From Flavobacteriia bacterium (GTDB lineage Bacteria; Bacteroidota; Bacteroidia; Flavobacteriales_D; Crocinitomicaceae): a stretch of DNA of 64,000 nucleotides. Shown in pieces: positions 20,384 through 34,127 of the stretch. The position numbers and the translations under genes were made by a program. The stretch covers positions 1-64,000 of the forward strand of contig CANFUT010000005.1 in NCBI GenBank assembly GCA_947450325.1, in the 5' to 3' direction. Positions within the stretch are counted from its first letter, which is position 1, and each line of letters begins with the position of its first letter. A model generated the notes under the pieces. It was not told the DNA's origin. It made no database searches and worked only from the letters and a program-made list of their open reading frames with translations.

Positions 20384-23300
20384 ATGAAAGCAGCATCAAC
20401 TAGCAAAAAATCACCTGAAAAATTCGACAAGAAAGAAGGCACATTTCCAGTAGTTGCAATCGGCGCTTCCGCAGGAGGTTTAGAAGCCATGATGGAATTT
20501 TTGAAATACCTTCCCGCAGATACTGGAATGGCATTTATTTATGTGCAACATCTCAGTCCAGATCACAAAAGTTTGTTGACCGAAATTTTGTCTAAAAAAA
20601 CAAAAATGGTCGTCCAAGAAATTGACGACATGGACAAAATCAATCCGAATAATGTATTTGTAATTCCTTATAACAAAGGTATTGAAGTTATAGATGGACA
20701 CATCAAATTGATTCCTCGTTCAGAAAGTAGTGCGGCCATTTCAATCGATATTTTGTTTTCATCCTTGGCAGAAGCGCAAAAGGAACGTGTAATCGGAATT
20801 ATTTTGAGCGGCAGCGCAAGTGACGGCACTGAAGGAATGAAAGCCATCAAACAATTTGGAGGATTGACTTTTGCGCAAGACGATTCTGCAAAATTTACAA
20901 GCATGCCACATTCTGCGATTGCTGCTGGAACTGTTGATTTTATTTTGTCTCCGAAGGACATGGCTTTAGAGTTAGCGAGATTAAGCAAACAACCTCTAGG
21001 AAACAATAGAGGCGTAAAAAATGGCGATGAAGATTTGATAGAAAACAATGACCCTGAATTAAAAAATATTCTGAATCAATTGCATATTTCAACGGGTGTT
21101 GACTTCAGCGTCTATAAAATGAATACCATCAAAAGGCGTATCATTAGAAGGATGTTTTTGTATAAAATTTCATTGCTTAAAGAATACGCTAAATTGCTTA
21201 CAGAAAATAAAGAAGAAATCGATATTCTGTATCAAGATTTGTTGATAAATGTTACCAGTTTTTTCAGAGATACAGAAACACATGAATATTTAAGAGAAAC
21301 ACTATTTCCAAAATTGCTTCAGCGCAAAAAAAATGGAGATTATTTGCGATTATGGGTTCCAGCTTGTGCAACAGGAGAAGAAGCGTATTCACTGGCCATC
21401 ATGTTGCTTGAAATACAAGAAAGCAAAATCACCAATATTCCAGTACAAATTTTCGCAACAGATTTAAGCGATCATGCGATTGGGAAAGCGAGGATTGGAA
21501 TTTATACACAGCAAGAATTGGAGACGGTTTCTCCCAAACGAATTCAAAGATTTTTCACCAAAACGGAAGGTGGTTTTCGTGTAAACAAAGCAGTTCGGGA
21601 CATGTGCGTTTTTGCACAACACAATATTTTGCGCGATCCACCTTTTTCAAGATTGGATTTCATTAGCTGTTGTAATTTGTTCATCTATTTCGATATCACC
21701 GCACAGAAAAAAGCAGTGAATACTTTCCATTACGCGCTCAACGATGATGGATATTTGATGCTTGGAAAATCAGAGAATATCAGTCATTCGCCCAATCTTT
21801 TTATCGGATTTAACAAGAAATATAAAATATTTTCAAGGAAAATAAATGCTGGAACTAGAACTTTGCCCGTTCTTTTACCTCGATATGCGCAACAAAATTT
21901 CGCAGATAAACCCAATTCAGTTTCAAATAAGAATAAATTGAACCAAAATATTTCAGTTGGTTTCAGTGGATTAGATCATGCAATTGATACCGTGTTGGTT
22001 TCAGAATTTATGCCAGCCAGCGTGGTCATCACTCACCAGATGGAAATCATTCAATTTCGGGGAATTACGGATTTATTTTTAACGCATCCGAAAGGCAAAG
22101 CGACGTTCAATATTCTAAAAATGGCGCGTCCAGAAATTGCATTTGAATTGCGCAATTCTATTTCAAAAGTCATCAAATCAAATATTCGTGTTCGAAAAAG
22201 TGGCATTGAATTGAAAATAAATGGGGAAGTTAAAATCATCAGTCTGGAAATTGTTCCTCTACAAATTGAGTTTGAAGAACCGCTGATTTTGGTATTGTTT
22301 AACGAACATGAGCAGATTGCAGTATTTTCAAATAATGAAAAGGGTGAAAGAGATTTTTCTCTTGCGAAAGATCGAAGAATCCTAAAATTGGAACAAGAAT
22401 TGGCTGCTGCGCATGCGGATACTTTGATGTTTGCACAAGAACAAGAAGAGTTTACTGAAGAGCTTCAAAGTGCCAATGAAGAAGTGGTTTCAAGTAACGA
22501 AGAGTTACAAAGTGTGAACGAAGAATTGGAAACTTCAAAAGAAGAAATTGAATCTGCCAATGAGGAATTGACCACAACCAATCAGGAATTGCAAACGCGC
22601 AATGATTTGCTTTTTGAAGCGTACGAATATTCTGAAGCGGTTTTTGCGACGATTCATGAATCTATGATTGTTTTAGACAAAAATCTCCGCGTCAAATCTG
22701 CCAATAAGACATTTTATAAAGTGTTTAATGTCAAGCAAGAAGACACTGAAGGCTTACTTTTGTATGAGTTGGGAAATAAACAATGGGATATTGAACGTTT
22801 GAGAAAATTATTGGAGGATATTTTACCAGGAAACAAACATTTCCATGATTTTGAAATTACGCATACTTTTCCACTGATTGGCAAAAAAACGATGTTGCTC
22901 AATGCGCGGAGAATCGTTCAAAAAATGAATCATGAGGAGCTGATTTTATTGGCTATTTCTGATATTTCTGAACAGACGATTGCGTTGAAAAAAATCGAAC
23001 AAAGTGAGCAGCGATTTCGCAATTTGGTAGAACAAACAATTTATCCAATTTTAATTTTAAAAGGCGATAAACTCATTTTAGAATTAGCCAATGATCCACT
23101 GTTCAAAATTTGGCATGTTGGCAAAGAATCGTTGGGAAAACCATTTTTGGAGATACTTCCAGAAATGAAAGATCAACCGTTTTATAATTTGTTGTTGGAT
23201 GTTTATAAAAACAATACAACCCATTTTGGAAATGAACAACCCGCGCATTTTAAGCGTGAAAATGGTCAAATCGAAACCTTGTATTTCAATTTTGTTTATC

Positions 23301-24559
23301 AACCTTACAAAGAAGAAGATGGAAAAGTTTCTGGCGTAATCGCTTTTGCTTCAGATGTTACAGAGCAAGTTCTCGCCAGACTTAAAATGGAAGAAAATGA
23401 AAAAGAACTTTTGCAAGCCAAGGAATTTGCTGAAAATGCGGTAAAATTCAAACAGCAGTTTTTATCAAATATGAGCCATGAAATAAGAACGCCTTTGAAT
23501 TCCATTTTAGGATTTGCAAATGTGTTATTGAAAACGGATTTAGATGAATCTCAGAAGGAGTTTTTAGAAGCAATCAAAACGAGTGGACATTCTTTAAACT
23601 TATTAATCAATGATATCCTTGATTTGGCGAAAGTGAATGCGGGCAGAATGAAATTTGACTTGCAACCATTTGAAATTCGCAGTTCGATAAAATCAATTCT
23701 TTTTTCCTTTGATTTTAAAATTAAAGAGAAGAATTTGAAGCTTTTAACAGAATTTGACACCAAAATTCCAGCGAAAATTGTGGGTGATTCCGTGCGATTG
23801 AATCAAATCATTTTAAATTTAGTTGGCAATGCGTTGAAATTTACCAATGTAGGAAGAATCAAATTAAAAGTCACTCTTTTAAATGAAACGGATGACAAAT
23901 TAAACATTCAATTCAGCATTTCAGATTCAGGAATCGGCATTAAATCAGATAAAATAAATTCTATTTTTAATCTCTTTGAACAAGCTGAAATCAGTACTGC
24001 AAATTCTTATGGTGGAACCGGTTTGGGATTGGCTATTGTAAAACAATTGATTGAAAATCAAGGTGGAAGTATTTGTGTGAAAAGTGAAATTAATATTGGT
24101 TCAACCTTTAGTTTTGTACTTCCTTTTGCAAAGAAATCCATACAGTCTGAAAGCAAAATTGAAATTCCTAAACAAGAATTTGAAGTTGTAAAATTGCGTA
24201 TTTTAGTGGCTGAAGACGTTGTTTTAAATCAGCTGTTAATCAGAATAATATTGGATGATTTTGGTTTTGAACATGAAATCGTCGGTAACGGAAAATTGGC
24301 AATTGAAGCAATGCAAAATAACGATTATGACATCGTTTTGATGGATTTACAAATGCCTATAATGAATGGTTTTGAAGCCACAGAATTTATTCGAAAAACG
24401 TTGAAATCGAAGATTCCAATTATTGCATTGACCGCAGATGTGACGACCATCGATGAAGTAAAATGTAAGAAAATTGGAATGAATGGATATATTTCAAAAC
24501 CCATTGATGAACATTTATTGTATCGAAAAATCGTCGAATTGACGAAAGTTCAAAAGTGA
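20384..24559 (+). CDS. CheB-CheR-PAS-histidine kinase-receiver fusion protein
   Basis: A cytoplasmic protein of 1391 residues. Domain order: CheB methylesterase at about 20-205 (IGASAGGLEAM, with S29 and H56 of the catalytic triad); CheR methyltransferase at about 225-490 (TSFFRDTETHEYLRE, VPACATGEEAYSLA); a Glu-rich coiled coil near 680-745 with repeated SANEEL / SVNEEL units; two PAS domains (about 750-870 and 885-1000); a HisKA domain with SHEIRTPL, H1032; an ATPase domain (SDSGIGI, GGTGLGL); and a C-terminal receiver with phospho-acceptor D1321 (VLMDLQMP). It joins methyl-based adaptation enzymes to a hybrid kinase. No chemotaxis receptor lies nearby, so the partners are unknown. Confidence 0.93.
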   Translation: MKAASTSKKSPEKFDKKEGTFPVVAIGASAGGLEAMMEFLKYLPADTGMAFIYVQHLSPDHKSLLTEILSKKTKMVVQEIDDMDKINPNNVFVIPYNKGIEVIDGHIKLIPRSESSAAISIDILFSSLAEAQKERVIGIILSGSASDGTEGMKAIKQFGGLTFAQDDSAKFTSMPHSAIAAGTVDFILSPKDMALELARLSKQPLGNNRGVKNGDEDLIENNDPELKNILNQLHISTGVDFSVYKMNTIKRRIIRRMFLYKISLLKEYAKLLTENKEEIDILYQDLLINVTSFFRDTETHEYLRETLFPKLLQRKKNGDYLRLWVPACATGEEAYSLAIMLLEIQESKITNIPVQIFATDLSDHAIGKARIGIYTQQELETVSPKRIQRFFTKTEGGFRVNKAVRDMCVFAQHNILRDPPFSRLDFISCCNLFIYFDITAQKKAVNTFHYALNDDGYLMLGKSENISHSPNLFIGFNKKYKIFSRKINAGTRTLPVLLPRYAQQNFADKPNSVSNKNKLNQNISVGFSGLDHAIDTVLVSEFMPASVVITHQMEIIQFRGITDLFLTHPKGKATFNILKMARPEIAFELRNSISKVIKSNIRVRKSGIELKINGEVKIISLEIVPLQIEFEEPLILVLFNEHEQIAVFSNNEKGERDFSLAKDRRILKLEQELAAAHADTLMFAQEQEEFTEELQSANEEVVSSNEELQSVNEELETSKEEIESANEELTTTNQELQTRNDLLFEAYEYSEAVFATIHESMIVLDKNLRVKSANKTFYKVFNVKQEDTEGLLLYELGNKQWDIERLRKLLEDILPGNKHFHDFEITHTFPLIGKKTMLLNARRIVQKMNHEELILLAISDISEQTIALKKIEQSEQRFRNLVEQTIYPILILKGDKLILELANDPLFKIWHVGKESLGKPFLEILPEMKDQPFYNLLLDVYKNNTTHFGNEQPAHFKRENGQIETLYFNFVYQPYKEEDGKVSGVIAFASDVTEQVLARLKMEENEKELLQAKEFAENAVKFKQQFLSNMSHEIRTPLNSILGFANVLLKTDLDESQKEFLEAIKTSGHSLNLLINDILDLAKVNAGRMKFDLQPFEIRSSIKSILFSFDFKIKEKNLKLLTEFDTKIPAKIVGDSVRLNQIILNLVGNALKFTNVGRIKLKVTLLNETDDKLNIQFSISDSGIGIKSDKINSIFNLFEQAEISTANSYGGTGLGLAIVKQLIENQGGSICVKSEINIGSTFSFVLPFAKKSIQSESKIEIPKQEFEVVKLRILVAEDVVLNQLLIRIILDDFGFEHEIVGNGKLAIEAMQNNDYDIVLMDLQMPIMNGFEATEFIRKTLKSKIPIIALTADVTTIDEVKCKKIGMNGYISKPIDEHLLYRKIVELTKVQK

Positions 24560-24705
24560 TTTATTTTGAATTTGAAAAATTAAATTTATTTCAATTATTT
24601 ATTGCTTTTGGAACTGGTTTTGTTTCTGTCATTTGGTTTGAAATTGTCAAAATATTTTACAGAAAAAGGGGTAATCGAGATGCAAAAGATGTTCTAAAAG
24701 TTTAA
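24556..24705 (+). pseudogene. Possible C-terminal remnant of a P-type cation ATPase
   Basis: A frame overlapping the kinase stop codon reads, after a possible GTG start, a hydrophobic helix QLFIAFGTGFVSVIWFEIVK and a basic tail (IFYRKRGNRDAKDVLKV) before a stop. The IWFEIVK ending followed by Lys/Arg is what I know from the last membrane helix of cation-transporting P-type ATPases. Only about 49 codons remain and nothing upstream belongs to such an enzyme. It could instead be a genuine small membrane protein translated by coupling to the kinase. Confidence 0.4.
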
Positions 24706-24728
24706 ATTTGATAAAATTTCAGCGCAAA

Positions 24729-25094
24729 ATGAACAACAACAGCAATCACGACGAACGTTTCGCCAAAATGATTTTCGGATCTGTATATCCACTTTATTTG
24801 GCGAAAGTCGAAAGAAAAGGCAAAACGAAAGAAGAGTTGGATCAAATTATTTCGTGGCTGACGGGATTTAACGTTTCATCCATACAAGAAATGATTGAGC
24901 GAAAAGTAACTTTTGAAACTTTTTTCCAAGAAGCGAAAATCAATCCAAATGCGAAATTGATTACTGGTGTTATTTGCGGTTATCGCGTGGAGGAAATTGA
25001 AAATAAATTGACGCAGCAAGTGCGGTATTTAGATAAATTGGTTGATGAATTAGCGAAAGGTCGGAAAATGGAGAAAATTTTGAGAGAATTATGA
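24729..25094 (+). CDS. DUF2200 family protein
   Basis: A protein of 121 residues from the ATG at 24729, preferred over one 21 bases upstream because the family begins with the HDERFAKMIFGSVYPLYL block. Other family features are KVERKGKTKEELDQIISWLT near 30-48 and the stretch TGVICGYRVEEIENKLTQQV. The protein is small, soluble and basic, with a helical fold of unknown function. It is common in Bacteroidota and Firmicutes, usually as a lone gene. It follows the putative ATPase remnant and has no co-directional partner at close distance. Confidence 0.8.
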   Translation: MNNNSNHDERFAKMIFGSVYPLYLAKVERKGKTKEELDQIISWLTGFNVSSIQEMIERKVTFETFFQEAKINPNAKLITGVICGYRVEEIENKLTQQVRYLDKLVDELAKGRKMEKILREL

Positions 25095-25107
25095 TTTTTT
25101 TATTTCT

Positions 25108-25139
25108 TTGAAAAACAATTTTTTAACTGTATATTTTTG
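25108..25139 (+). promoter_or_regulatory. Bacteroidota-type promoter
   Basis: TTG at 25108-25110 and TATTTTTG at 25132-25139, spacer 21. It lies about 90 bases before the acidic protein gene at 25231, leaving an untranslated leader of about 85 bases. Confidence 0.5.
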
Positions 25140-25230
25140 GACTTAACTACAACAGTCACTTTGAAATAACCAACCTTGTCGCAGAAAGTGATACATTTAT
25201 ATTCTTTTAGGAACTGAAAAAAAAAGGAAT

Positions 25231-25725
25231 ATGAAAACGGAGCAAAAATATTTTGAGTTACTCATTTTAATCACAAATGATGTGGAATTAAGTACATTTC
25301 TATCCAAGGAAATGATGGAATCTGAAAATGATTTGCGCTCTTTTTTTGAAAAGCACAAAGCCGCACATTTTACAAATCGTGGGATAAGCAGTGCAGAAAA
25401 TCCAGATTTGGCCTTGTGCTATTTATTGGATAAATTGGAAGAAAATGAATTTTTATGCGAATTGGATTATAAATCTGATTCAGAGGAATTAAATTATGCA
25501 ATTAGATTGCTTTCCAAGGGAATAATTACGAAGGATTTGTTCTCAGAAGAAGATGAGGAAGATGCACATGGCATGTTTGAATTAATTTTTGATGCTGAAG
25601 ATTATTTGGAAGAACTAGATTTGGCGATTGTCGAATTTCCAATCGAAAGTGATAGTCATCCGATTTCTGTGGTTCCTTTGGAAAAATTAGAAGCAGTTCA
25701 AACCTTGATTGATGAACTTTTTTGA
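25231..25725 (+). CDS. Acidic hypothetical protein (possibly DUF6630-like)
   Basis: A strongly acidic soluble protein of 164 residues with no signal or membrane segment. The arrangement, an N-terminal YFELLILITND helix, ALCYLLDKLEENEFLCELDY in the middle and acidic linkers (SEEDEEDAH), recalls DUF6630 proteins, but I cannot confirm that by eye. Its own promoter lies 90 bases upstream. The next gene is a regulator with a separate promoter. The function is unknown; proteins of this kind often occur among toxin/immunity or stress genes. Confidence 0.65.
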   Translation: MKTEQKYFELLILITNDVELSTFLSKEMMESENDLRSFFEKHKAAHFTNRGISSAENPDLALCYLLDKLEENEFLCELDYKSDSEELNYAIRLLSKGIITKDLFSEEDEEDAHGMFELIFDAEDYLEELDLAIVEFPIESDSHPISVVPLEKLEAVQTLIDELF

Positions 25726-25813
25726 TAGTTTATCCTTTATTTGTATGAAAACAACCATCAGTTGTCAAATACAACTAAAAATAACTAAATTACAACCATG
25801 AATATATATGTTT

Positions 25814-25847
25814 TTGAAGGCTACAGTTTTCATCCGCAATAACTTTG
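25814..25847 (+). promoter_or_regulatory. Promoter of the XRE-pentapeptide gene
   Basis: TTG at 25814-25816 and TAACTTTG at 25840-25847 with a 23-base spacer. An ATG at 25845 in frame with the gene overlaps the -7 box, so translation must start later, at 25875. Confidence 0.6.
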
Positions 25848-25874
25848 CAACATAGAAATTCAAAAATTGTAATT

Positions 25875-26774
25875 ATGGAAATCAAATCAATTGGCAACAA
25901 AATTGCCGAAGCTAGAAAGAAAGTCAATTTGTCACAAGCGCAATTGGCGGAACATTTATTCATCAGTGCGCAAGCAGTTGGAAAGTGGGAGCGAGGTGAA
26001 TCAATTCCCGATTTAATGACCTTTATCAGACTCGCGAAAACGGTTGGCGTAGATTTGAATTATTTTTCGGACGATTTTAAATCAACTGTTGAAGAAACAA
26101 CGGAGAAAAATCCAAAAATTGAACTTGAAATTCAATCAGATGCGCCGAAACAAACTAAAAATAAATTGCGTTGGAACATGTCTCGCGGAAATTGGGTGGA
26201 TGCCGATTTTTCCGGATTGAAAAATTTGCAAGAAAAATTCAGTTCTTCCAACATGAAAAAATGCAAATTCATTGGTTCTGAATTGAATGGATTAATTTTG
26301 AAAAGCAATAATATCGATGGCTGTGATTTTTCCAAGTCAGAAATCAACCAAAGTCAAATCCAAAATTCAAATATTGTGCACACCAATTTCAGCGATTGCA
26401 CTTTAAAAGAAACAACATTTTCTGGCAGTTTCATCATGGATTGCGACTTTTCAAATGCAGATTTGTCTGGCGCCATTTTCAAATACGGTGGAATTCAAAA
26501 AAATCCCATGAACAATGCCGTTTTGAATCAAACTACTTTCAATGGGATGTACATTGCTGAAATCATTTTCGAAGGAAATGTGGAAGATTGTTATTTCGAA
26601 AATTGTGATTTCAAACACGTTGTTTTTCAAAATGCCTTGCTAAAAAACACATTCTTCAAAGGCGGAAGTTTAAAGAAAATCAAATTTGAAGCTTGTCAAG
26701 CAGATCGATTAAAGTATGAATTTTTGAGAAGTGGCAAAGCAGATTTGAGTGGAGTAGAATTGTTGAATGATTGA
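25875..26774 (+). CDS. XRE-family regulator fused to pentapeptide repeats
   Basis: A protein of 299 residues. Residues 1-65 form a helix-turn-helix of the XRE/Cro type (IAEARKKVNLSQAQLAEHLF, AVGKWERGESIPD). After an acidic-to-basic linker, residues about 95-290 are a right-handed pentapeptide-repeat helix with units such as CDFSK, TNFSD, CDFSN, ADLSG and CDFKH. Pentapeptide folds mimic DNA or serve as protein docking surfaces; here they probably control or partner the DNA-binding head. The gene opens the stress-type cluster (25.8-31.4 kb) but has its own standard promoter. The operator and effector are unknown. Confidence 0.85.
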   Translation: MEIKSIGNKIAEARKKVNLSQAQLAEHLFISAQAVGKWERGESIPDLMTFIRLAKTVGVDLNYFSDDFKSTVEETTEKNPKIELEIQSDAPKQTKNKLRWNMSRGNWVDADFSGLKNLQEKFSSSNMKKCKFIGSELNGLILKSNNIDGCDFSKSEINQSQIQNSNIVHTNFSDCTLKETTFSGSFIMDCDFSNADLSGAIFKYGGIQKNPMNNAVLNQTTFNGMYIAEIIFEGNVEDCYFENCDFKHVVFQNALLKNTFFKGGSLKKIKFEACQADRLKYEFLRSGKADLSGVELLND

Positions 26775-26833
26775 AATTTTAGCTGTTTAATTCAATTCAA
26801 ACTGTAAATCATGCAATTAATTGCAATTATTAT

Positions 26834-26890
26834 GTAAGAGCTATAAATCGCCTATTTCTGAACTTTGTGTTGTTGTGAAAATCTATTCAT
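26834..26890 (+). promoter_or_regulatory. Non-standard shared promoter, copy A
   Basis: GTAAGAG at 26834-26840, TATAAA at 26842-26847, then TTTCTGAACTTTGT and TTGTTGTGAAAAT. The same order, spacing and bases recur at 29891-29946 before the BON-domain gene. The region replaces the usual TTG with GTAAGAG at the -33 position and has ACTTTG at the -7 position, as expected for an alternative or ECF sigma factor. It drives the His-rich protein gene at 26909. Confidence 0.7.
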
Positions 26891-26908
26891 AATGTAAAAA
26901 ATACCACA

Positions 26909-27166
26909 ATGAAAAATTCAGAAACAAACAGTAAAACAGAATTGGAAATTATTCCACAAACAGAAAATCAAAAAGGGATTGACAACCATAAAAAAGCGGC
27001 TTCGCATTTTGAAGCGGCTGCAAAAAGTCATATAGAAGCTGCAAGGCATCATGAAAGTGGCAATCACGAAAAAGCAGCAAAATGCACAGTGGAAGCGCAT
27101 GGTCATTCTTGTGCAGCAAATGAGGCCCAAAAAGAAGATGTCAAGCATCATACAGCCAGATTTTAA
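26909..27166 (+). CDS. Small His/Ala-rich helical protein
   Basis: A protein of 85 residues. The second half is one amphipathic helix rich in Ala, His, Glu and Lys with HxxAAxH-type spacing (HKKAASHFEAAAKSHIEAAR, HHESGNHEKAAKC) and two cysteines. It could bind metal or form a coiled coil. It has no signal peptide. It is first in a run with lipocalin, PfpI and dehydrogenase genes and is driven by the unusual promoter shared with the BON gene. The end overlaps the lipocalin start by 29 bases. The family is not recognised with certainty; similar short proteins occur near Dps/BON genes in Bacteroidota. Confidence 0.65.
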   Translation: MKNSETNSKTELEIIPQTENQKGIDNHKKAASHFEAAAKSHIEAARHHESGNHEKAAKCTVEAHGHSCAANEAQKEDVKHHTARF

Positions 27167-27707
27167 GATTTACAAGAATTACTTGCAAGCATTGAATAAA
27201 TCGGTGCTAATAAGTTTTTTTTTTACAATACTTACAGCAACTTCTATGTCGCAAAAATTGCAAACTGTTCCTCATGTTGATTTAAAAAAATATGAAGGTA
27301 AGTGGTATGAAATTGCATCGTTGCCACAGCGATTTCAAAAAGGTTGCAATTGCACTACTGCAGAATATACTTTAACGGATAAAGATTATGTATTAGTTGA
27401 AAACAGATGCAATAAGGGCAGCATAAATGGAAAACAAACTTACATCAAGGGAAAAGCATTTGTCGTTGAAAACAGCGGAAACGCCAAACTAAAAGTACAA
27501 TTCTTTTGGCCATTCAAAGGTAAATATTGGATTATAGAATTGGCTGACAATTACAGTTATGCGGTTGTTGGACATCCCAATAAAAATTACTTGTGGATTC
27601 TTTCAAGAACGTCAACTATGAAAGACGCAACCTACCAACAAATTATTTCCAGCGTGCAAGAAAAAGGATTTGACATTTCAAAAATTAAACTGACTAAACA
27701 ATTGTGA
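27138..27707 (+). CDS. Bacterial lipocalin (Blc type)
   Basis: A protein of 189 residues from the ATG at 27138, which overlaps the preceding gene; a TTG near 27190 is an alternative. A hydrophobic export segment (SVLISFFFTILTATSMSQ) has no lipobox cysteine, so it is probably periplasmic rather than a lipoprotein. The lipocalin core shows DLKKYEGKWYEIASLPQRFQ (first conserved region), CTTAEYTL, then FFWPFKGKYWIIEL, YAVVGHPNKNYLWILSR (second and third regions). E. coli Blc binds lysophospholipids and is induced at stationary phase; a similar envelope-stress role is likely here. Confidence 0.88.
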   Translation: MSSIIQPDFKIYKNYLQALNKSVLISFFFTILTATSMSQKLQTVPHVDLKKYEGKWYEIASLPQRFQKGCNCTTAEYTLTDKDYVLVENRCNKGSINGKQTYIKGKAFVVENSGNAKLKVQFFWPFKGKYWIIELADNYSYAVVGHPNKNYLWILSRTSTMKDATYQQIISSVQEKGFDISKIKLTKQL

Positions 27708-27730
27708 GTTTCAAACAAAACATTAAAATT

Positions 27731-28429
27731 ATGAAAGTATTAATCGTAATGACTTCCCATAGCGAATTGGGAAATTCTAAAGAAAAAACTGGTTTTTGGA
27801 TAGAAGAATTTGCCTCGCCTTACTATGTTATGGCAGATGCTGGAGCAACAATAATCATTGCATCACCCAAAGGTGGACAACCACCCGTTGATCCTAAAAG
27901 CGAATTGGAAGATGCGCAAACGGCTTCAACGTTGCGGTTTTACAAAGATGAATTAGCAATTGATAAAGTGGCAAATTCCATCAAATTGAGTGATATTAAG
28001 TATCAAGATTACGATGCTGTTTTTTATCCAGGCGGACACGGTCCATTGTGGGATTTGGCAACAGACAAAGATTCAATTAAACTGATTGAGGATTTTTACA
28101 ATCATCAAAAACCAATTGCATTTGTTTGTCATGCACCAGCTGCGCTCGTGAATGTAAAGGCAGAAAACGGAGAATCACTTGTAAAAGGAAAACATTTAAC
28201 CAGCTTTTCAAACACAGAAGAAGAAGCAGTAAAACTGACCAAGATTGTTCCGTTTTTACTGGAAGACGAACTTAAAAAGCATGGTGCCGTTTATACCAAA
28301 GGTGCTGATTGGTCATCCTATACGCAACAAGATGACTTACTCATAACAGGGCAAAATCCTGCCTCATCTGAAGCTGTTGCCAAACTTTTATTGAAAGCAA
28401 TCAAAGGCGAAAAACAAAATCATTTATAA
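27731..28429 (+). CDS. DJ-1/PfpI family protein (type 1 glutamine amidotransferase-like, Hsp31-type)
   Basis: A protein of 232 residues from the ATG at 27731; an upstream ATG-like codon at 27704 overlaps the lipocalin stop and is less likely. The fold begins MKVLIVMTSHSELGN and carries the nucleophile elbow AFVCHAPAAL with C133-H134, plus an acidic residue in YPGGHGPLWDL. Members of this Hsp31/YhbO-like group act as glyoxalases, chaperones or protein deglycases under carbonyl stress. It lies between the lipocalin and an aldehyde dehydrogenase with gaps of 23 and 8 bases, forming one operon that would deal with reactive carbonyls. Confidence 0.88.
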   Translation: MKVLIVMTSHSELGNSKEKTGFWIEEFASPYYVMADAGATIIIASPKGGQPPVDPKSELEDAQTASTLRFYKDELAIDKVANSIKLSDIKYQDYDAVFYPGGHGPLWDLATDKDSIKLIEDFYNHQKPIAFVCHAPAALVNVKAENGESLVKGKHLTSFSNTEEEAVKLTKIVPFLLEDELKKHGAVYTKGADWSSYTQQDDLLITGQNPASSEAVAKLLLKAIKGEKQNHL

Positions 28430-28437
28430 ATAGAATC

Positions 28438-29820
28438 ATGATATTTCAAACTATTAATCCGACAAACAATAAGGTCGTAAAATCATTTGATGAAATGAGC
28501 GATGCAACTGTTGAAAAAGCAATTTCACAGGCATCTGCTGCATTTGATGAATGGAAGCAAACGGACTATCAAACTAGGGCTCAGTTGTTATATGCTGTTG
28601 CAGGTTTGCTTCGAGCAAAAAGAAAAGACCTTGCTAAAATGATTACCTTGGAAATGGGAAAACTTGTATCTCATGCGGAAGGTGAAATAAAATTGAGTGC
28701 TGAAATTTTTGACTATTATGCCAAAAACGCAGAATCATTTTTGGCTGACAAAATCTTAAATCCTGTTCACGGAAAAGCTTTGATACGTTATAGCCCTGTT
28801 GGTGTTCTACTAGGCATACAACCTTGGAATTTTCCATTTTACCAAGTTGCCCGTTTTGCAGCGCCTAATCTCATGATTGGAAATACTGTGCTGATTAAAC
28901 ATGCGATGAATGTTCCCCAATGTGCCATTGCCATTGAAGAAATATTTGCAGAAGCAGGAGCACCACTTGGACTTTATACCAATTTATTGATATCTCATCA
29001 ACAATCAAGTAAAATAATTGGCGACAAAAGAATTAGAGGTCTTTCACTAACAGGAAGTGAGGTCGCAGGAGCAATTGTGGCTGCCGAAGCTGGTAAACAT
29101 GTCAAAAAATCTGTTTTAGAATTAGGTGGCAGCGATGCGTTCATCATTCTAGAAGATGCAGATATAGATCAAGCAGTAGAATGGGCAGTTGTTGGAAGGA
29201 TAAATAACAACGGTCAATGTTGTGTTGCAGCAAAAAGGTTTATTGCTGTTGAAAGTATTGCTGATACTTTTTTAGAAAAATTCACAGAAAAAATGGCGGT
29301 GTTGGTAGTTGGTGATCCGATGGAAGACACGACACATTTAGGTCCTCTTTGTACAGAAGCAGCGGCTGTAAGAATTGCAGACCAAGTGAAACGAGCATTA
29401 GATGGCGGTGCAAAAATAGTATTGGGAGGAAAAAGAGTTGAAAGAGACGGAGCATATATGGAAGCCACAATTCTGACAAATGTAAAACGCGAAAATCCTG
29501 TTTTTTATGAAGAATTTTTTGGTCCAGTTGCATTGTTTTTCAAAGTTAAAAATGAGAAAGAGGCCATTGCATTAGCTAATGATTCTCCTTTTGGTTTAGG
29601 AGGTTCTGTTTTTACACAAGACGTTGAAAGAGGCAAACGTGTAGCCAATCAAATCGATACGGGAATGGTTTTCATCAATCATCCGACTTGGACACAAGCT
29701 GATTTGCCTTTTGGTGGCACAAAAGGTTCTGGCTACGGAAGAGAAATGGCTCAATTGGGATTGGATGAATTTGTAAACAAAAAACTCATCCGAATTAGTG
29801 AATTGAGCGATCCTTTTTAA
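28438..29820 (+). CDS. gabD: NAD(P)-dependent succinate-semialdehyde dehydrogenase-like protein
   Basis: A protein of 460 residues of the aldehyde dehydrogenase superfamily. Key parts: NPTNNKVVKSF at the start, the cofactor segment GVLLGIQPWNFPFYQ, the general base in LELGGSD (E228) and the catalytic cysteine in NNNGQCCVAAKRF (C262, with a second Cys at 261). The C-terminal GTKGSGYGREMAQLGLDEFV matches the Sad/GabD-like branch acting on succinate semialdehyde or related aldehydes. It is last in the operon with the PfpI protein. The substrate is inferred from family; another short-chain aldehyde is possible. Confidence 0.88.
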   Translation: MIFQTINPTNNKVVKSFDEMSDATVEKAISQASAAFDEWKQTDYQTRAQLLYAVAGLLRAKRKDLAKMITLEMGKLVSHAEGEIKLSAEIFDYYAKNAESFLADKILNPVHGKALIRYSPVGVLLGIQPWNFPFYQVARFAAPNLMIGNTVLIKHAMNVPQCAIAIEEIFAEAGAPLGLYTNLLISHQQSSKIIGDKRIRGLSLTGSEVAGAIVAAEAGKHVKKSVLELGGSDAFIILEDADIDQAVEWAVVGRINNNGQCCVAAKRFIAVESIADTFLEKFTEKMAVLVVGDPMEDTTHLGPLCTEAAAVRIADQVKRALDGGAKIVLGGKRVERDGAYMEATILTNVKRENPVFYEEFFGPVALFFKVKNEKEAIALANDSPFGLGGSVFTQDVERGKRVANQIDTGMVFINHPTWTQADLPFGGTKGSGYGREMAQLGLDEFVNKKLIRISELSDPF

Positions 29821-29890
29821 ATGAAAATACTTTTTGAAATTTGAGCTTGCAAATCGGCAAGTGAATACTGCAAGTCATTTCAAATATTGT

Positions 29891-29946
29891 GTAAGAGGTA
29901 TAAAAAGCCATTTTCTGAACTTTGTATTGTTGTGAAAATTCATTCA
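29891..29946 (+). promoter_or_regulatory. Non-standard shared promoter, copy B
   Basis: GTAAGAG at 29891-29897, TATAAA at 29899-29904, then TTTTCTGAACTTTGT and TTGTTGTGAAAAT, ending ATTCA. It aligns with 26834-26890 with no large gaps and few mismatches. The BON-domain gene starts 20 bases later. Confidence 0.7.
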
Positions 29947-29966
29947 CAGTTTAATAAATTATCAAA

Positions 29967-30638
29967 ATGAAAAGTAATCAAGTATTGCAAAGTGACGTTC
30001 AAGACGCCATCAAATGGGAACCTTTGTTGCATGCCGCCGAAATCGGTGTAACTGCGAAAGAAGGTGTAGTTTCTTTAACTGGGGTTGTGGACAGCTATGC
30101 CAAGAAATTGGAAGCTGAAACTGCTGCAAAAAAAGTGATTGGAGTCAAAGCGTTGATTGAAAATATCGAAGTTAAATTTCCAAGTTCTTGGACCAAAACA
30201 AACCTTGAAGTGGCTAATGCTGTTTTGGTAGCTTTAAATTCTAATTGGTCAGTTCCTAAAGACAAAGTGACTGTTAAAGTAGAAGACGGTTGGGTAACCT
30301 TGGAAGGACAATTGCCATGGAATTTTCAGCGAGAAGCTGCAAAAAGTGCTGTGAATTTTTTAAGTGGCGTAAAAGGTGTTACGAACAATATAAAAATAAA
30401 ATCAGAATCACACAATGCCATCGAGCAAAAAGATGTGGAAGATGCCATCGGCAGAAGTTGGTCTGTTGATGACAGTGATATCAATGTGTCAGTTTCTGAA
30501 TCGACGGTTACCTTGAGTGGAACTGTTAACTCATGGTATCAAAAGGAAGAAGCTGGTCGAATTGCTTGGAATACGCCTGGGATTTGGCACGTTGAAAATG
30601 AATTGGCAGTAGATTACTACTATGCTTATGTTGATTAA
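29967..30638 (+). CDS. Protein with three BON domains (OsmY-like)
   Basis: A protein of 223 residues made of three BON modules of about 70 residues each: 5-70 (VQDAIKWEPLL, VSLTGVVDSYAKKLEAE), 75-145 (VANAVLVALNSNW, VTLEGQLPWNFQREAA) and 150-220 (VEDAIGRSW, VTLSGTVNSWYQKEEA). BON domains bind phospholipid surfaces; OsmY-type proteins guard the envelope in osmotic stress. No signal peptide is visible, so this one may be cytoplasmic or exported otherwise. It is driven by the promoter shared with the His-rich gene and followed by a strong terminator before dps. Confidence 0.9.
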   Translation: MKSNQVLQSDVQDAIKWEPLLHAAEIGVTAKEGVVSLTGVVDSYAKKLEAETAAKKVIGVKALIENIEVKFPSSWTKTNLEVANAVLVALNSNWSVPKDKVTVKVEDGWVTLEGQLPWNFQREAAKSAVNFLSGVKGVTNNIKIKSESHNAIEQKDVEDAIGRSWSVDDSDINVSVSESTVTLSGTVNSWYQKEEAGRIAWNTPGIWHVENELAVDYYYAYVD

Positions 30639-30645
30639 AATGTAA

Positions 30646-30686
30646 GAAACGATGGTTCCAAAAGTTCCATCGTTTCAATTTTTTAC
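30646..30686 (+). terminator. Rho-independent terminator after the BON gene
   Basis: GAAACGATGG at 30646-30655 pairs perfectly with CCATCGTTTC at 30667-30676, then AATTTTTTAC. Some read-through into dps is possible, since no clear promoter follows. Confidence 0.85.
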
Positions 30687-30718
30687 AAATAATTATTTAT
30701 CCCAAACAATTCAAAATC

Positions 30719-31204
30719 ATGCAAATAGAAATCGGAATTACAGATGTTAATCGTCAAGAAATTACCAACAAATTGTCAATCATTTTAGCGGATGAAACAG
30801 TTTTATACACCAAAACCAAAAATGCCCACTGGAATGTGGAAGGTCCAGATTTTTATGACAAACATAAATTTTTCGAAACACAATTTGGTCAATTGGATGA
30901 ATTGATTGATGCTGTGGCTGAGAGAATTCGTTCAATCGGACATTATGTGCCAGCAACTTTGAAATCTTATTTAAGTTTGACGAGATTGACTGAACAAACA
31001 AGCGAAAGAAACGACAGTCAAGGTTTTATCAAAGAATTGGTGGAAGACCATCAAAATATCATTTTCAATCTGCGCGAACACATTGTAATTTTTGCGGACG
31101 AACTACACGACATTGGAACGAGTGATTTTATTACAGGATTGATGGAAACCCATGAAAAAATGGCTTGGTTTTTACGTTCACATTTAAATAAAAACGAATG
31201 TTAA
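30719..31204 (+). CDS. dps: Dps family ferritin-like DNA-protection protein
   Basis: A four-helix ferritin-like protein of 161 residues. The ferroxidase region is visible: NAHWNVEGPDF (His, Trp) and FFETQFGQLDELIDAVAERI (the Asp/Glu ligands), followed by LREHIVIFADELHDIGTSDF and a C-terminal helix. Dps oxidises ferrous iron with peroxide, stores it, and coats DNA in stationary phase. The length is normal. A SHOCT-domain gene starts within its last codons, so the two are translationally coupled. Confidence 0.94.
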   Translation: MQIEIGITDVNRQEITNKLSIILADETVLYTKTKNAHWNVEGPDFYDKHKFFETQFGQLDELIDAVAERIRSIGHYVPATLKSYLSLTRLTEQTSERNDSQGFIKELVEDHQNIIFNLREHIVIFADELHDIGTSDFITGLMETHEKMAWFLRSHLNKNEC

Positions 31205-31407
31205 TCGACTACGATTACAACTTTTTAGGGATGCACCTTGGTTGGTGGATCCTTTGGGGAATTTTACTCATTTGGATTTTCATTGTTCCGTATAATATTC
31301 CTGGACAGAGAAGCAAGAAAATTTCGCCAATTGATATTCTGAAAAGTCGCTATGCTTCAGGTGAAATAAGCTATGAAGAATTTCAAGAAATGAAAAAATA
31401 TCTTTAA
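31198..31407 (+). CDS. Small SHOCT-domain membrane protein
   Basis: A protein of 69 residues whose ATG overlaps the dps stop region by 7 bases. One Trp-rich membrane helix (GWWILWGILLIWIFIVPYNI) is followed by a C-terminal SHOCT motif (DILKSRYASGEISYEEFQEM), a short domain that aids oligomerisation. Proteins of this build are common single-pass membrane proteins of unknown role. Coupling to dps suggests expression in the same stress state. Confidence 0.85.
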   Translation: MLIDYDYNFLGMHLGWWILWGILLIWIFIVPYNIPGQRSKKISPIDILKSRYASGEISYEEFQEMKKYL

Positions 31408-31436
31408 CGCTTTTAAATTCTAATCTACTATTCAAT

Positions 31437-32114
31437 ATGTGTTTTTCAGCAAGTGCAAGTTTTTCAGCAAGTGCAAGTTTTACAGCAGGAGCAGTACTAT
31501 CAATCATCGGAGTAGCTTCAATCACCAAAGTCAAACATCCCTCACATCTTCTATTTGCTAGTATTCCGCTACTTTTTGGGATACAGCAAATAGCAGAAGG
31601 ATTTCTTTGGGTTACTTTGCCAAATCCTGAATATGAGCAAATTCAAAAACTTTTTACTTACATTTTTCTATTCTTTGCACAAACGCTTTGGCCCATGTGG
31701 GTTCCTTTCTCAATTCTACTTTTGACTCCACAAATTTCAAGAAAATTTTCTGCAAAGGTGCTAGTTTCTTGTGGTTTTGTGTTGGGGATTTTTCTCTTTT
31801 GTTTTCTATTAAATTTTGATGTCAGCGCCAAAATAGTGGAACAACACATCGTTTATTATCAAGATTATCCGACATCTTTTAGATTAATTGGAGTCATTCT
31901 TTATATGTTGGCGACCATCATTCCTCCGTTTTTTTCGAAAATCAAATACATGTGGTTATTGGGGACCACGATTTTGATTTCATACATCATCACTGCCATT
32001 TTTTACAACCATTACCTGCTCTCAGTTTGGTGCTTTTTCTCGTCAGTGATTAGTTTGTCTATCTATTTGATAATTAAACATGATAATCGGTCAGAAAAAA
32101 CATTTGTGAAATAA
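31437..32114 (+). CDS. Polytopic membrane protein (DUF6629-like)
   Basis: A protein of 225 residues with about seven hydrophobic segments. It begins MCFSASASF and then repeats FSASASF before TAGAVLSIIGVASI; the DNA shows the same 18 bases twice in a row at 31443-31478, a recent tandem duplication of six codons. The MCFSASASFxAGxxL start, FGIQQIAEGFLW and AQTLWPMWVPFSI are as I remember for DUF6629 proteins. The function is unknown. It follows the SHOCT gene by 29 bases and may be the end of that transcript. Confidence 0.7.
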   Translation: MCFSASASFSASASFTAGAVLSIIGVASITKVKHPSHLLFASIPLLFGIQQIAEGFLWVTLPNPEYEQIQKLFTYIFLFFAQTLWPMWVPFSILLLTPQISRKFSAKVLVSCGFVLGIFLFCFLLNFDVSAKIVEQHIVYYQDYPTSFRLIGVILYMLATIIPPFFSKIKYMWLLGTTILISYIITAIFYNHYLLSVWCFFSSVISLSIYLIIKHDNRSEKTFVK

Positions 32115-32168
32115 AGTTCTCGAAAATTAATTTTTCATATTTTTTTTTTATTTTTGAAAAAAAAAAAT

Positions 32169-33137
32169 ATGAAAAAACTAAACTATTTAACTTTAACTGC
32201 CTTATTTGTGGGGGTGAGCGCATCATCATTTACTCAGAATTACACTGACACAGCATATTATAAAGATGGAACAAGTATTCCTTACTTCATTAAAAATCAA
32301 AGTGATAAAGTTCAAAAATATAATTTTTGCATAAGTCCAATAACTGTATTGCCAGACAATGTCGTATTCATGTTTTCAACTACAGGATTTATGAGGCTTA
32401 ATAAAAAAATGTTTGTAGACGCAAGATTTGCAATACCATATTCTTCTTCGACGGATAATATAGCGTCTAAATCTGCACAAAAGGGTACTATAGAAGTTCA
32501 AGGCGCTTTTAATTATTTATTTGGAACAGTTAAAAAAATGAAACCTGCTCAGTGTTATCTTGCGTCTAAATATTTGTCTACATCAAGTGTTACTGTTTAT
32601 CAGATGAAATTCGAAAAAGAAAGAATTACTAAATATTATTTATCTGGTGGATTAGACTTTTTAAGAACAGCAGGTCAAACAAATTATATCGCAGGTGACA
32701 AACTAACTGAGTTCACTAAATATTTTATTGGAAATGCAAGTTCAGTTTCAATAATGGGCGGAATTACGAGGGAGCGAAGATATGGATATACTTATGGTTC
32801 AACGTTGCTCCCAAAAATTTTGAAAAGAAATGGAAGAATAAGAAACTATGCATATTTAACTTATGCTCCAGTAATAAATTATAGCATTGTTAGGACTAGT
32901 GGTTCAGATTATCAAGTTGTTAATACTGGTTATAATGTTCCTGATAAATTTCGAAAATTAGGTTGGAGATTTGGAACTGAAATTAAACTTAGCCCGACAA
33001 ATGTTTCTCCATATTTTGGTTTAGAATTTGGACGAATGCACGGTATCAAGGAGTCAATTTCGCAAAAAAGCTACTACGGATCAGTTTATGCAATGGTTAA
33101 ACTAGGTATCGAATTCGGGATAAAAGGTAAGAAATAA
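32169..33137 (+). CDS. Secreted/outer-membrane hypothetical protein
   Basis: A protein of 322 residues from the ATG at 32169. An ATG-like start at 32154 would lie within the -7 box TATTTTTG (32149-32156), so it is rejected. A signal peptide (LNYLTLTALFVGVSASSFTQ) is followed by a strand-rich body with alternating aromatic residues and a C-terminus reading SVYAMVKLGIEFGIKGKK, like a small beta-barrel. No family was recognised. A bidirectional terminator separates it from the convergent hydrolase gene. Confidence 0.65.
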   Translation: MKKLNYLTLTALFVGVSASSFTQNYTDTAYYKDGTSIPYFIKNQSDKVQKYNFCISPITVLPDNVVFMFSTTGFMRLNKKMFVDARFAIPYSSSTDNIASKSAQKGTIEVQGAFNYLFGTVKKMKPAQCYLASKYLSTSSVTVYQMKFEKERITKYYLSGGLDFLRTAGQTNYIAGDKLTEFTKYFIGNASSVSIMGGITRERRYGYTYGSTLLPKILKRNGRIRNYAYLTYAPVINYSIVRTSGSDYQVVNTGYNVPDKFRKLGWRFGTEIKLSPTNVSPYFGLEFGRMHGIKESISQKSYYGSVYAMVKLGIEFGIKGKK

Positions 33138-33186
33138 GCTCAAAATGAGTCATCTTAAAATTAGATGAAATAATTTTTGAATAGAT

Positions 33187-33223
33187 AAAAACGACCAGTG
33201 GAGATTCTTCATCGGTCGTTTTT
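33187..33223. terminator. Bidirectional terminator between convergent genes
   Basis: AAAAACGACC at 33187-33196 pairs perfectly with GGTCGTTTTT at 33214-33223 across a 17-base loop. A run of A on one side and T on the other lets it work on both strands. It overlaps the last codons of the minus-strand hydrolase. Confidence 0.8.
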
Positions 33224-33982
33224 CAAAAAATCAATAACAATCAAATTAAATTCTTTCGGTTGATCAACGTTGACTACATGACCACAGTCCGAAATCACAT
33301 GCAATTTCGACTTGAGATGGTCTTTCACCAATTTCGAAATTGAAGGCAAAAAAAGATGGTCTTCGGCGCCCATGACATATAAAGTGGGAATGTTGGATTC
33401 GTTGATTCTGAAAAAATGCAATAATCCATTGACTTTTGAAACCAAATTAAACCAACGTTTGAATTCCTTTTGATACGATTTCTTGGCTTCGTTGATGAAC
33501 AAATTGCGCGATTCGCGGTGTTTTTTTTGAGGCATAATGACCAAAGCAAAAATTTTGTAAAGCAATAAATAGGGTAGAACCGATTTCAATAAATTGCCTG
33601 TATGCATCAAAATTTGACTTTTTACATTCAATTTCATCACTGCGCCACCCATAATCATAGAAGAAACCATCGTCGGAAAACGTTCAGCCAATTCACGGAT
33701 TATAATCGTTCCAAGCGAAATACCGATAAAATGAGATTTCGTAATTTTCAAGTGATTCAAAACTTCAATCACATCATTTCCAATCGAATCAAATGTATAA
33801 TTGCGTTTGTTTTTTCCGGATTTAGATGCTCCGTGTCCGCGTAAATCGAGCAACAACACATTGAAATCTTTCTGAAAATCACGGATTTGTTTGTACCAAA
33901 TCGAACTGCTTCCGCCAGCACCGTGCACAAAAGTGACCCAAGGAGCATTCGGTTGATGGTGATATATTTGATAGTTTAACAC
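33209..33982 (-). CDS. Alpha/beta hydrolase
   Basis: A protein of 257 residues with a GTG start. The oxyanion motif FVHGAGGSSSIW is at 18-29, LLLDLRGHGAS at 43-53, the nucleophile elbow GISLG with S89, a probable acid in VMGAEDHLF, and the catalytic His in CGHVVNVDQP near the C-terminus. The triad is complete. No signal peptide, so it is cytosolic. It resembles small carboxylesterases and 3-oxoadipate enol-lactonase-like hydrolases; the substrate cannot be told from sequence. It stands alone, convergent with a secreted protein gene. Confidence 0.88.
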   Translation of the reverse strand: MLNYQIYHHQPNAPWVTFVHGAGGSSSIWYKQIRDFQKDFNVLLLDLRGHGASKSGKNKRNYTFDSIGNDVIEVLNHLKITKSHFIGISLGTIIIRELAERFPTMVSSMIMGGAVMKLNVKSQILMHTGNLLKSVLPYLLLYKIFALVIMPQKKHRESRNLFINEAKKSYQKEFKRWFNLVSKVNGLLHFFRINESNIPTLYVMGAEDHLFLPSISKLVKDHLKSKLHVISDCGHVVNVDQPKEFNLIVIDFLKNDR

Positions 33983-34127
33983 TTTAATGTAACAAGCAAT
34001 TCGTTAATATGTTTGAGATTAAGGGACTTATTTTTCATATTAGAATTGAATGAAATTTCTGAAATTCAAAACTTCGAAGAAAATTAGTTTTACATTTGAG
34101 TTTTAATGTTAGTTAATTGTAAACAAA

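Follow-up and report, generated by a model that had tools for sequence, protein, structure and literature searches.

Here, we describe a promoter element found at two places in a 64,000-nucleotide stretch of a Crocinitomicaceae genome (Flavobacteriia bacterium, assembly GCA_947450325.1, contig CANFUT010000005.1, positions 1 to 64,000; hereafter the window), and the stress-type regulon of Bacteroidota to which it belongs. Site A precedes a gene for a His-rich protein, and site B precedes a gene for a triple-BON (OsmY-like) protein. Both sites have the same architecture: a 17-bp distal box (R1), a proximal box (R2) at a spacing of 21 bp, an AnnTTTG -7 element, a predicted transcription start 5 nt later and an inverted repeat that begins at the predicted start. 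We consider it likely that a class-II activator of the AraC/XylS type, together with the RNA polymerase of the primary sigma factor, sigma-A, serves these R1-R2 sites in a stress regulon that extends across Bacteroidota. This reading is built on direct observations, namely the conserved architecture, the set of genes that goes with it, the linkage to an AraC-type gene and the covariation within the hairpin.

The features of the two sites are as follows. Boxes come from a matrix and an alignment of 57 upstream regions, and positions of the -7 element follow PMC6847099, which, like the other papers cited here by PMC number, is represented by excerpts.

26802..26818, + strand: site A, distal box R1 (CTGTAAATCATGCAATT); matrix and alignment.
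26823..26839, + strand: site A, proximal box R2, core ATTATGTAAG at 26829-26838, 21 bp from R1 and over the -35/-33 region; matrix and alignment.
26860..26867, + strand: site A, -7 element GAACTTTG, with a predicted start at 26872 (G of TTTG is -5); matrix.
26872..26893, + strand: site A, inverted repeat and predicted 5'-terminal mRNA hairpin; pairing and folding.
29859..29875, + strand: site B, distal box R1 (AAGTGAATACTGCAAGT); matrix and alignment.
29880..29896, + strand: site B, proximal box R2, core ATTGTGTAAG at 29886-29895; matrix and alignment.
29917..29924, + strand: site B, -7 element GAACTTTG, with a predicted start at 29929; matrix.
29929..29950, + strand: site B, inverted repeat GTTGTGAAAATTCATTCACAGT and predicted 5'-terminal mRNA hairpin; pairing and folding.

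A preliminary description of this DNA had reported a near-identical block, with the same order and spacing, before the His-rich and BON genes. Our alignment of the two upstream regions confirms the order and the spacing, and the block TTTCTGAACTTTGTnTTGTTGTGAAAAT is found at 26855-26882 and 29912-29939 with 27 of its 28 letters identical (the differing letter is the n); it is absent from 100 shuffles of the window. Random occurrence in the genome had been named as a possible objection. Exact copies of GTAAGAGnTATAAA start at 26834 and 29891 only, both in the window and in the whole genome, and the 24-nt core of the downstream block has just two genome copies even when up to three mismatches are allowed. 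The two sites also share letters beyond the conserved columns, in the spacer (TATAAA...GCC) and in TTTCTGAAC, while TTGTTGTGAAAAT is a portion of the left arm and the loop of the inverted repeat. The description further held that GTAAGAG replaces the usual -33 TTG while a TTTG stays at -7. The TTTG is indeed retained, but GTAAGAG, which corresponds to the TGTAAG of R2, is not itself the conserved unit; across relatives that unit is approximately ATTGTGTAA[C/G], at a fixed distance from AnnTTTG.

Using the BON protein behind site B as the query, relatives were found in 20 of 150 family genomes and then in 79 loci from a public genome collection. Together with the upstream regions of the BON and His-rich genes of the window, these gave 81 regions, which served both to train a simple matrix and as the sequence searched with it. 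The fixed-spacing element scored above 12 bits in 58 of the 81, nearly all of them upstream of BON genes, and no shuffled region out of 1,620 scored higher than 1.6 bits. A further 22 regions, including those of other Chryseobacterium and Flavobacterium species, scored below 9 bits. These were left out of the 57-row alignment, as were L127 and L129, which are near-identical to L123. The consensus is GTGTGAATnATGTAACt, followed 21 bp on by ATTGTGTAAC and then, at a fixed distance, by CACCTTTG; R1 is conserved about as well as R2. An ATG follows the TTTG by 36-44 nt in 57 of 59 cases (range searched, 36-46). By their database labels, the element-bearing regions belong to Flavobacterium, Muricauda, Chryseobacterium, Lacihabitans, Belliella and Neolewinella and to Chitinophagaceae, Saprospiraceae and Bacteroidales assemblies. 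Two loci labelled Phycisphaerales (L107) and Akkermansiaceae (L158) have Bacteroidota-like BON genes and are possibly misbinned contigs.

This breadth bears on the explanation that the upstream region was copied within one lineage and signifies nothing more, which we regard as very improbable. Sites A and B do match outside the conserved columns, but BON genes of many genera have the architecture in front of them, and in another genome a His-rich gene of similar type (L122:3377-3631) has a site of its own. Recent duplication in a single strain, which had been foreseen as a way for the original idea to fail, is contradicted as the whole account. Copying may have added local similarity; it cannot explain the element.

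When both strands of the window and the 79 loci were scanned, 107 matches exceeded 8 bits, a count that takes near-identical loci (e.g. L127 and L129) separately, and 58 of these were the training sites. Five both-strand shuffles gave eight matches above 8 bits in all, with a best score of 15.1 (the best of an earlier one-strand shuffle was 5.8), and sites below about 16 bits may thus be due to chance. Sites above 18 bits number 94 and are spread over 58 of the 79 loci.

Genomes were searched with a covariance model, which includes the hairpin. In the source genome, it found seven sites at E<=0.011 and 13 at E<=5. The seven precede the His-rich gene, the BON gene, a lipoprotein gene with a weak sll1863-type match (followed by genes for an outer-membrane barrel and YtxH), an AraC-type gene, two unassigned genes and a DUF4142 gene that a pyridoxamine-oxidase-like gene follows. 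A GH130 gene has a weaker site (E 0.06) in front of it; at L203:12321-15701, a glycosyltransferase-like open reading frame (ORF; by reading) and the GH130 gene stand behind a weaker site adjoining the AraC operon, and this type of gene is found behind sites in three cases. Eight other genomes have 5-37 matches each at E<=0.1, often clustered (e.g. G177:C56 and G180:C12). Across all loci, we counted 197 distinct sites above 18 bits, of which 184 have a gene behind them. These genes fall into 56 clusters, named from the matches of one representative or from reading of the sequence: 63 BON, 16 sll1863-like lipoproteins, 10 ice-binding-like, nine CsbD-like and nine AraC-type, with smaller clusters that include the His-rich family, DUF5670, YceI, DUF2383, response regulators and kinases. 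The suggestion that a stress-type regulon has a promoter class of its own is supported by the 58 of 81 regions and by the site scans of this and other genomes, and we conclude that the class is real.

Under the explanation we favor, an AraC/XylS-type activator would bind the two 17-bp direct repeats, R1 and R2, at their 21-bp spacing. R2 would stand in for the missing -33 box, and the activator would recruit ordinary sigma-A RNA polymerase to the AnnTTTG -7 element. BON transcripts would start flush with a short hairpin. Binding and activation are inferred from the observations above, as are where transcription starts, which stress induces it and what the hairpin does.

There are parallels among known systems. 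The araI1 and araI2 half-sites are spaced by 21 bp and overlap the -35 region, and about 21 bp is the spacing for known AraC/XylS members. As in class-II AraC/XylS promoters, there are two direct repeats here with two sub-boxes each, the proximal one over the -35 region; a regulator with an AraC-type DNA-binding domain; and a regulator gene that adjoins its target or is autoregulated. For comparison, XylS binds two 15-bp direct repeats on Pm, each with a box A and a box B (PMC5481539). The present promoters differ in that their -7 element is of the Bacteroidota TTTG type, in that their targets are numerous stress-type genes grouped in islands and not a single catabolic operon, and in a regulator whose N-terminal part is short, at about 80 aa.

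The best candidate for the activator would be a 185-aa AraC-type protein encoded elsewhere in the source genome (C15:11623-12177), which may be autoregulated through a site 38 bp upstream of its own gene. The gene runs in the same direction as those for a PAS histidine kinase and a receiver-only protein. The protein matches Pfam HTH_18 (E 4e-16) and HTH_AraC, and the structure model of a relative (mean predicted local distance difference test score 80) has an AraC-type DNA-binding fold, with Foldseek matches to SoxS, MarA, AdpA and AraC domains. The N-terminal 50 residues of this model form helix-strand-strand-helix. One of eight members has a weak heavy-metal-associated match (E 0.011), and a metal or redox sensor is only a guess.

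The case for this protein is one of linkage. Among the 150 family genomes, 53 have the AraC-type protein (E<=1e-20) and 40 have a site (E<=1e-3); 27 have both, compared with 14 expected from the product (Fisher 1.2e-6). Where both occur, 44 of 86 sites are no more than 10 kb from the AraC-type gene against about 1.3 expected in genomes of 3.6 Mb, although sites of the same island are non-independent. The loci contain 11 AraC genes of at least 60% identity. For nine of them, a site of more than 20 bits lies no more than 144 bp upstream, and one of the remaining two has a site, seen by eye, whose spacing differs by one. A site just past the stop codon was seen for eleven AraC genes, most of them less similar. 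Flavobacterium dankookense DSM 25687 (locus L094, genome G174), a laboratory strain with the element, has three relatives of the AraC-type gene. The 115 loci contain 16 AraC ORFs no further than 4 kb from a site, 10 of them within 160 bp, a count that is weaker than the linkage in the 150 genomes because the loci are short and were picked for BON genes or sites.

Several observations weigh against this explanation. No close AraC relative was detected in 13 of the 40 site-bearing genomes, and six of these 13 are 98-100% complete; a search at E 1e-6 brings up distant AraC domains only, in five of the 13. Regions from nine of these 13 genomes were examined, and eight had matrix sites above 14 bits, while the best in G106 was 10.8 bits, in the chance range. 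Two of the 13, G162 and G107, are fragmentary. Of 39 named genomes, 38 have the AraC family, some of them with a BON gene that lacks a site, and since it is present in either case, only linkage favors the AraC-type protein. At the -7 element, position -12 is T in 6 of 57 regions and C in 35. Finally, an ECF (extracytoplasmic function) sigma gene identified with Pfam (L292:6408-7007) lies 379 bp from a site in G095, a genome without the AraC protein.

The first of these points would suit another activator, of the Crp/Fnr type or a response regulator of the island histidine kinases, that binds R1-R2 and has the AraC-type protein merely as a regulon member. We think this improbable. Genes for response regulators and PAS kinases themselves stand behind sites (by reading), and in G107, which has sites without the AraC protein, a Crp-type gene (Pfam) is directly behind a weak site (23 bits, L289). 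On the other hand, the 115 loci yielded five Crp-like ORFs, three of which are in loci that have no site, and the response regulator of the source genome consists of a receiver domain alone. Crp-type sites are palindromes, unlike the 21-bp direct repeats seen here. Crp-like ORFs are found at L141:1074-2123 and L142:1079-1807 (Pfam) and at L150:2828-3886 and L151:13-1065 (BLAST); the BON gene of each of these loci is without the element, a hint of a different regulator for BON genes in some Flavobacterium and Fluviicola; in L141, a site lies 886 bp from the Crp-like ORF.

The last two points touch on the sigma factor. Sigma-A promoters of Bacteroidota have a TTTG or TAHHTTTG -7 box, and T-12 is nearly invariant in F. 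johnsoniae promoters, according to the excerpts of PMC6847099. The present element resembles them in its A-11 (57 of 57 regions) and in the TTTG at -8 to -5 (T-8 and T-7 in 57 of 57, T-6 in 55 and G-5 in 41), with a leader of about 37 nt where F. johnsoniae averages 33 nt. It differs in having R2 at -33, mostly C in place of T-12 and a strong preference for C-9. The C at -12 may reflect activator dependence or a different sigma factor.

The preliminary description had proposed an alternative sigma factor, ECF-type or otherwise divergent, in which case the TGTAAC box would be a -35 element and CACCTTTG a -10 element. We judge this unlikely. The fixed distance between TGTAA and TTTG speaks for it, as do the C at -12 and the C-9 (51 of 57 regions), and an ECF-like gene in L099 (by BLAST similarity), 613 bp from a site, joins the one in L292, while that of the source genome (L203:1400-1969) is 6.6 kb from a site; F. 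psychrophilum has seven ECF factors (excerpts of PMC9723704). Against this, R1, which would be superfluous for a sigma factor, is about as conserved as R2, and the -7 box retains five of six sigma-A letters. BLAST with two ECF queries found four ECF-like genes in the 115 loci, two of which are at most 0.7 kb from a site, versus the 16 AraC ORFs, a comparison that carries the same selection of loci. The CGT-type -10 box of ECF promoters, described for motif SM6 (PMC9723704), was not seen in this region, which mostly reads CACCTTTG. The description was thus correct as to the regulon, whereas its sigma factor is probably, though not certainly, mistaken: R2 occupies -33, the sigma-A letters are mostly kept, an AraC gene is linked and ECF genes are rarer, while the scarcity of T-12 and the ECF gene beside a site in L292 leave its proposal some room.

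Downstream of the -7 element, the inverted repeat corresponds to a predicted hairpin at the 5' end of the mRNA. In 57 leaders (56 of BON genes and that of the His-rich gene at site A), 87% of the cells are paired, compared with 71% after shuffling and at most 47% when slid, and there are 75 two-sided changes against 23 in shuffled alignments. The 34-nt leaders fold with a mean of -6.1 kcal/mol versus -1.8 when shuffled. The first base of the stem peaks at the fifth nucleotide after TTTG, which is the predicted +1 if the G is -5 (PMC6847099). A stem starting 3-5 nt after TTTG, plus one, occurs at 39 of 63 BON sites (3.2 shuffled) and at none of nine AraC-gene sites. For other genes, the figure is 29 of 112 sites (4.5 shuffled), which is biased by the many loci that came via the hairpin-containing model; in loci picked by the BON protein alone, it is 3 of 25 non-BON, non-AraC sites (1.2 shuffled), and we dropped the hairpin as a general feature of the regulon. 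As a measure of background, 15 other ORFs of the window have TAnnTTTG upstream, and three of them score under a looser rule (offsets 2-8). We ascribe the hairpin to BON promoters and to some others, site A among them.

Over seven pairs, G.U and A.C mismatches, which help to tell RNA from a DNA palindrome, stand at 36:16, compared with 55:33 in shuffled columns, and an inverted repeat acting as a DNA operator instead of an RNA hairpin is formally still an option. Because 5'-terminal stem-loops are known to stabilize mRNA, as at ompA and papA (titles in the reference list of PMC3997798), the hairpin at BON genes probably lengthens the life of the mRNA. It resembles those structures in that the predicted stem begins at or next to +1, and differs in that it is about 8 bp long and is established mainly at BON genes. 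Hairpins of unrelated genes are more alike within genomes than between them; the same is true of the spacer and box regions, and we make no claim from it. In one genome, three unrelated genes (L115:315, L115:2862 and L115:4314) have a near-identical hairpin and leader with differing spacers, which suggests copying or homogenization of the leader; this is not general across genomes.

A wider picture, somewhat less likely than not to hold, can be sketched. Bacteroidota might have a general stress response whose master activator is of the AraC type and has a small N-terminal domain that is possibly metal-binding-like, acting on tens of genes in stress islands through 21-bp direct-repeat promoters with a CACCTTTG -7 element, while a structured 5' mRNA end would tune the output of the most abundant products. 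To our knowledge, Bacteroidota lack RpoS and SigB, and we know of little on stress control in this phylum. The present results provide a testable regulator, a predicted binding site and a gene list for a stress-type regulon of a major phylum. They also predict co-regulation of little-understood genes: BON, CsbD-like, YtxH, DUF4142, DUF2383, sll1863-like lipoproteins and ice-binding-like. A full-text search of open-licence papers with narrow word combinations did not find such a regulon.

Literal motif scans were less informative. GTAAGA-N14-19-TCTGA had four matches (the two sites and two others) against five in the reversed control, and with no enrichment, we dropped the idea of an E. coli sigma-E-like promoter. 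GTAAGAGnTATAAA with up to two mismatches occurred at 123 places in the genome, two of them exact, against 366 in the reversed control; 28 other loci of this type were examined, and none had a matrix site above 8 bits. TTATGTAA-N25-27-TTTG alone was too loose (13 matches, 13 in the control). A three-mismatch match to the 24-nt core in G054 was dropped, as by eye it reads like a coding stretch. Rfam gave two matches in window positions 24000-34000, both below the gathering score.

The genes behind the two sites in the window are as follows.

26909..27166, + strand: His-rich 85-aa gene, first behind site A; ORF, no Pfam or NCBIfam match.
27144..27707, + strand: lipocalin, start codon uncertain, probably in the same operon (from spacing); Pfam Lipocalin_2.
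27731..28429, + strand: DJ-1/PfpI family gene (Pfam), probably in the same operon.
28438..29820, + strand: aldehyde dehydrogenase, probably in the same operon; best NCBIfam match of succinate-semialdehyde type, below curated cut-offs.
29967..30638, + strand: triple-BON (OsmY-like) gene behind site B; Pfam BON in three stretches, OsmY model below cut-off.

These neighbors had been said to fit a stress response with its own promoter class. The lipocalin, PfpI and aldehyde dehydrogenase genes plausibly form one operon behind site A, judging by spacing; the membership of Dps is uncertain. The dps gene lies 3' of the BON gene, and between them, at 30647-30683, is an inverted repeat (GAAACGATGG...CCATCGTTTC) followed by a T-rich stretch that looks terminator-like by eye, because of which dps is perhaps outside the BON transcript; a terminator scan with a loop limit of 8 did not report this repeat. 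Directly upstream of the stress cluster, at 20384-24559, is a gene for a 1391-aa CheB-CheR-PAS-histidine kinase-receiver hybrid (Pfam).

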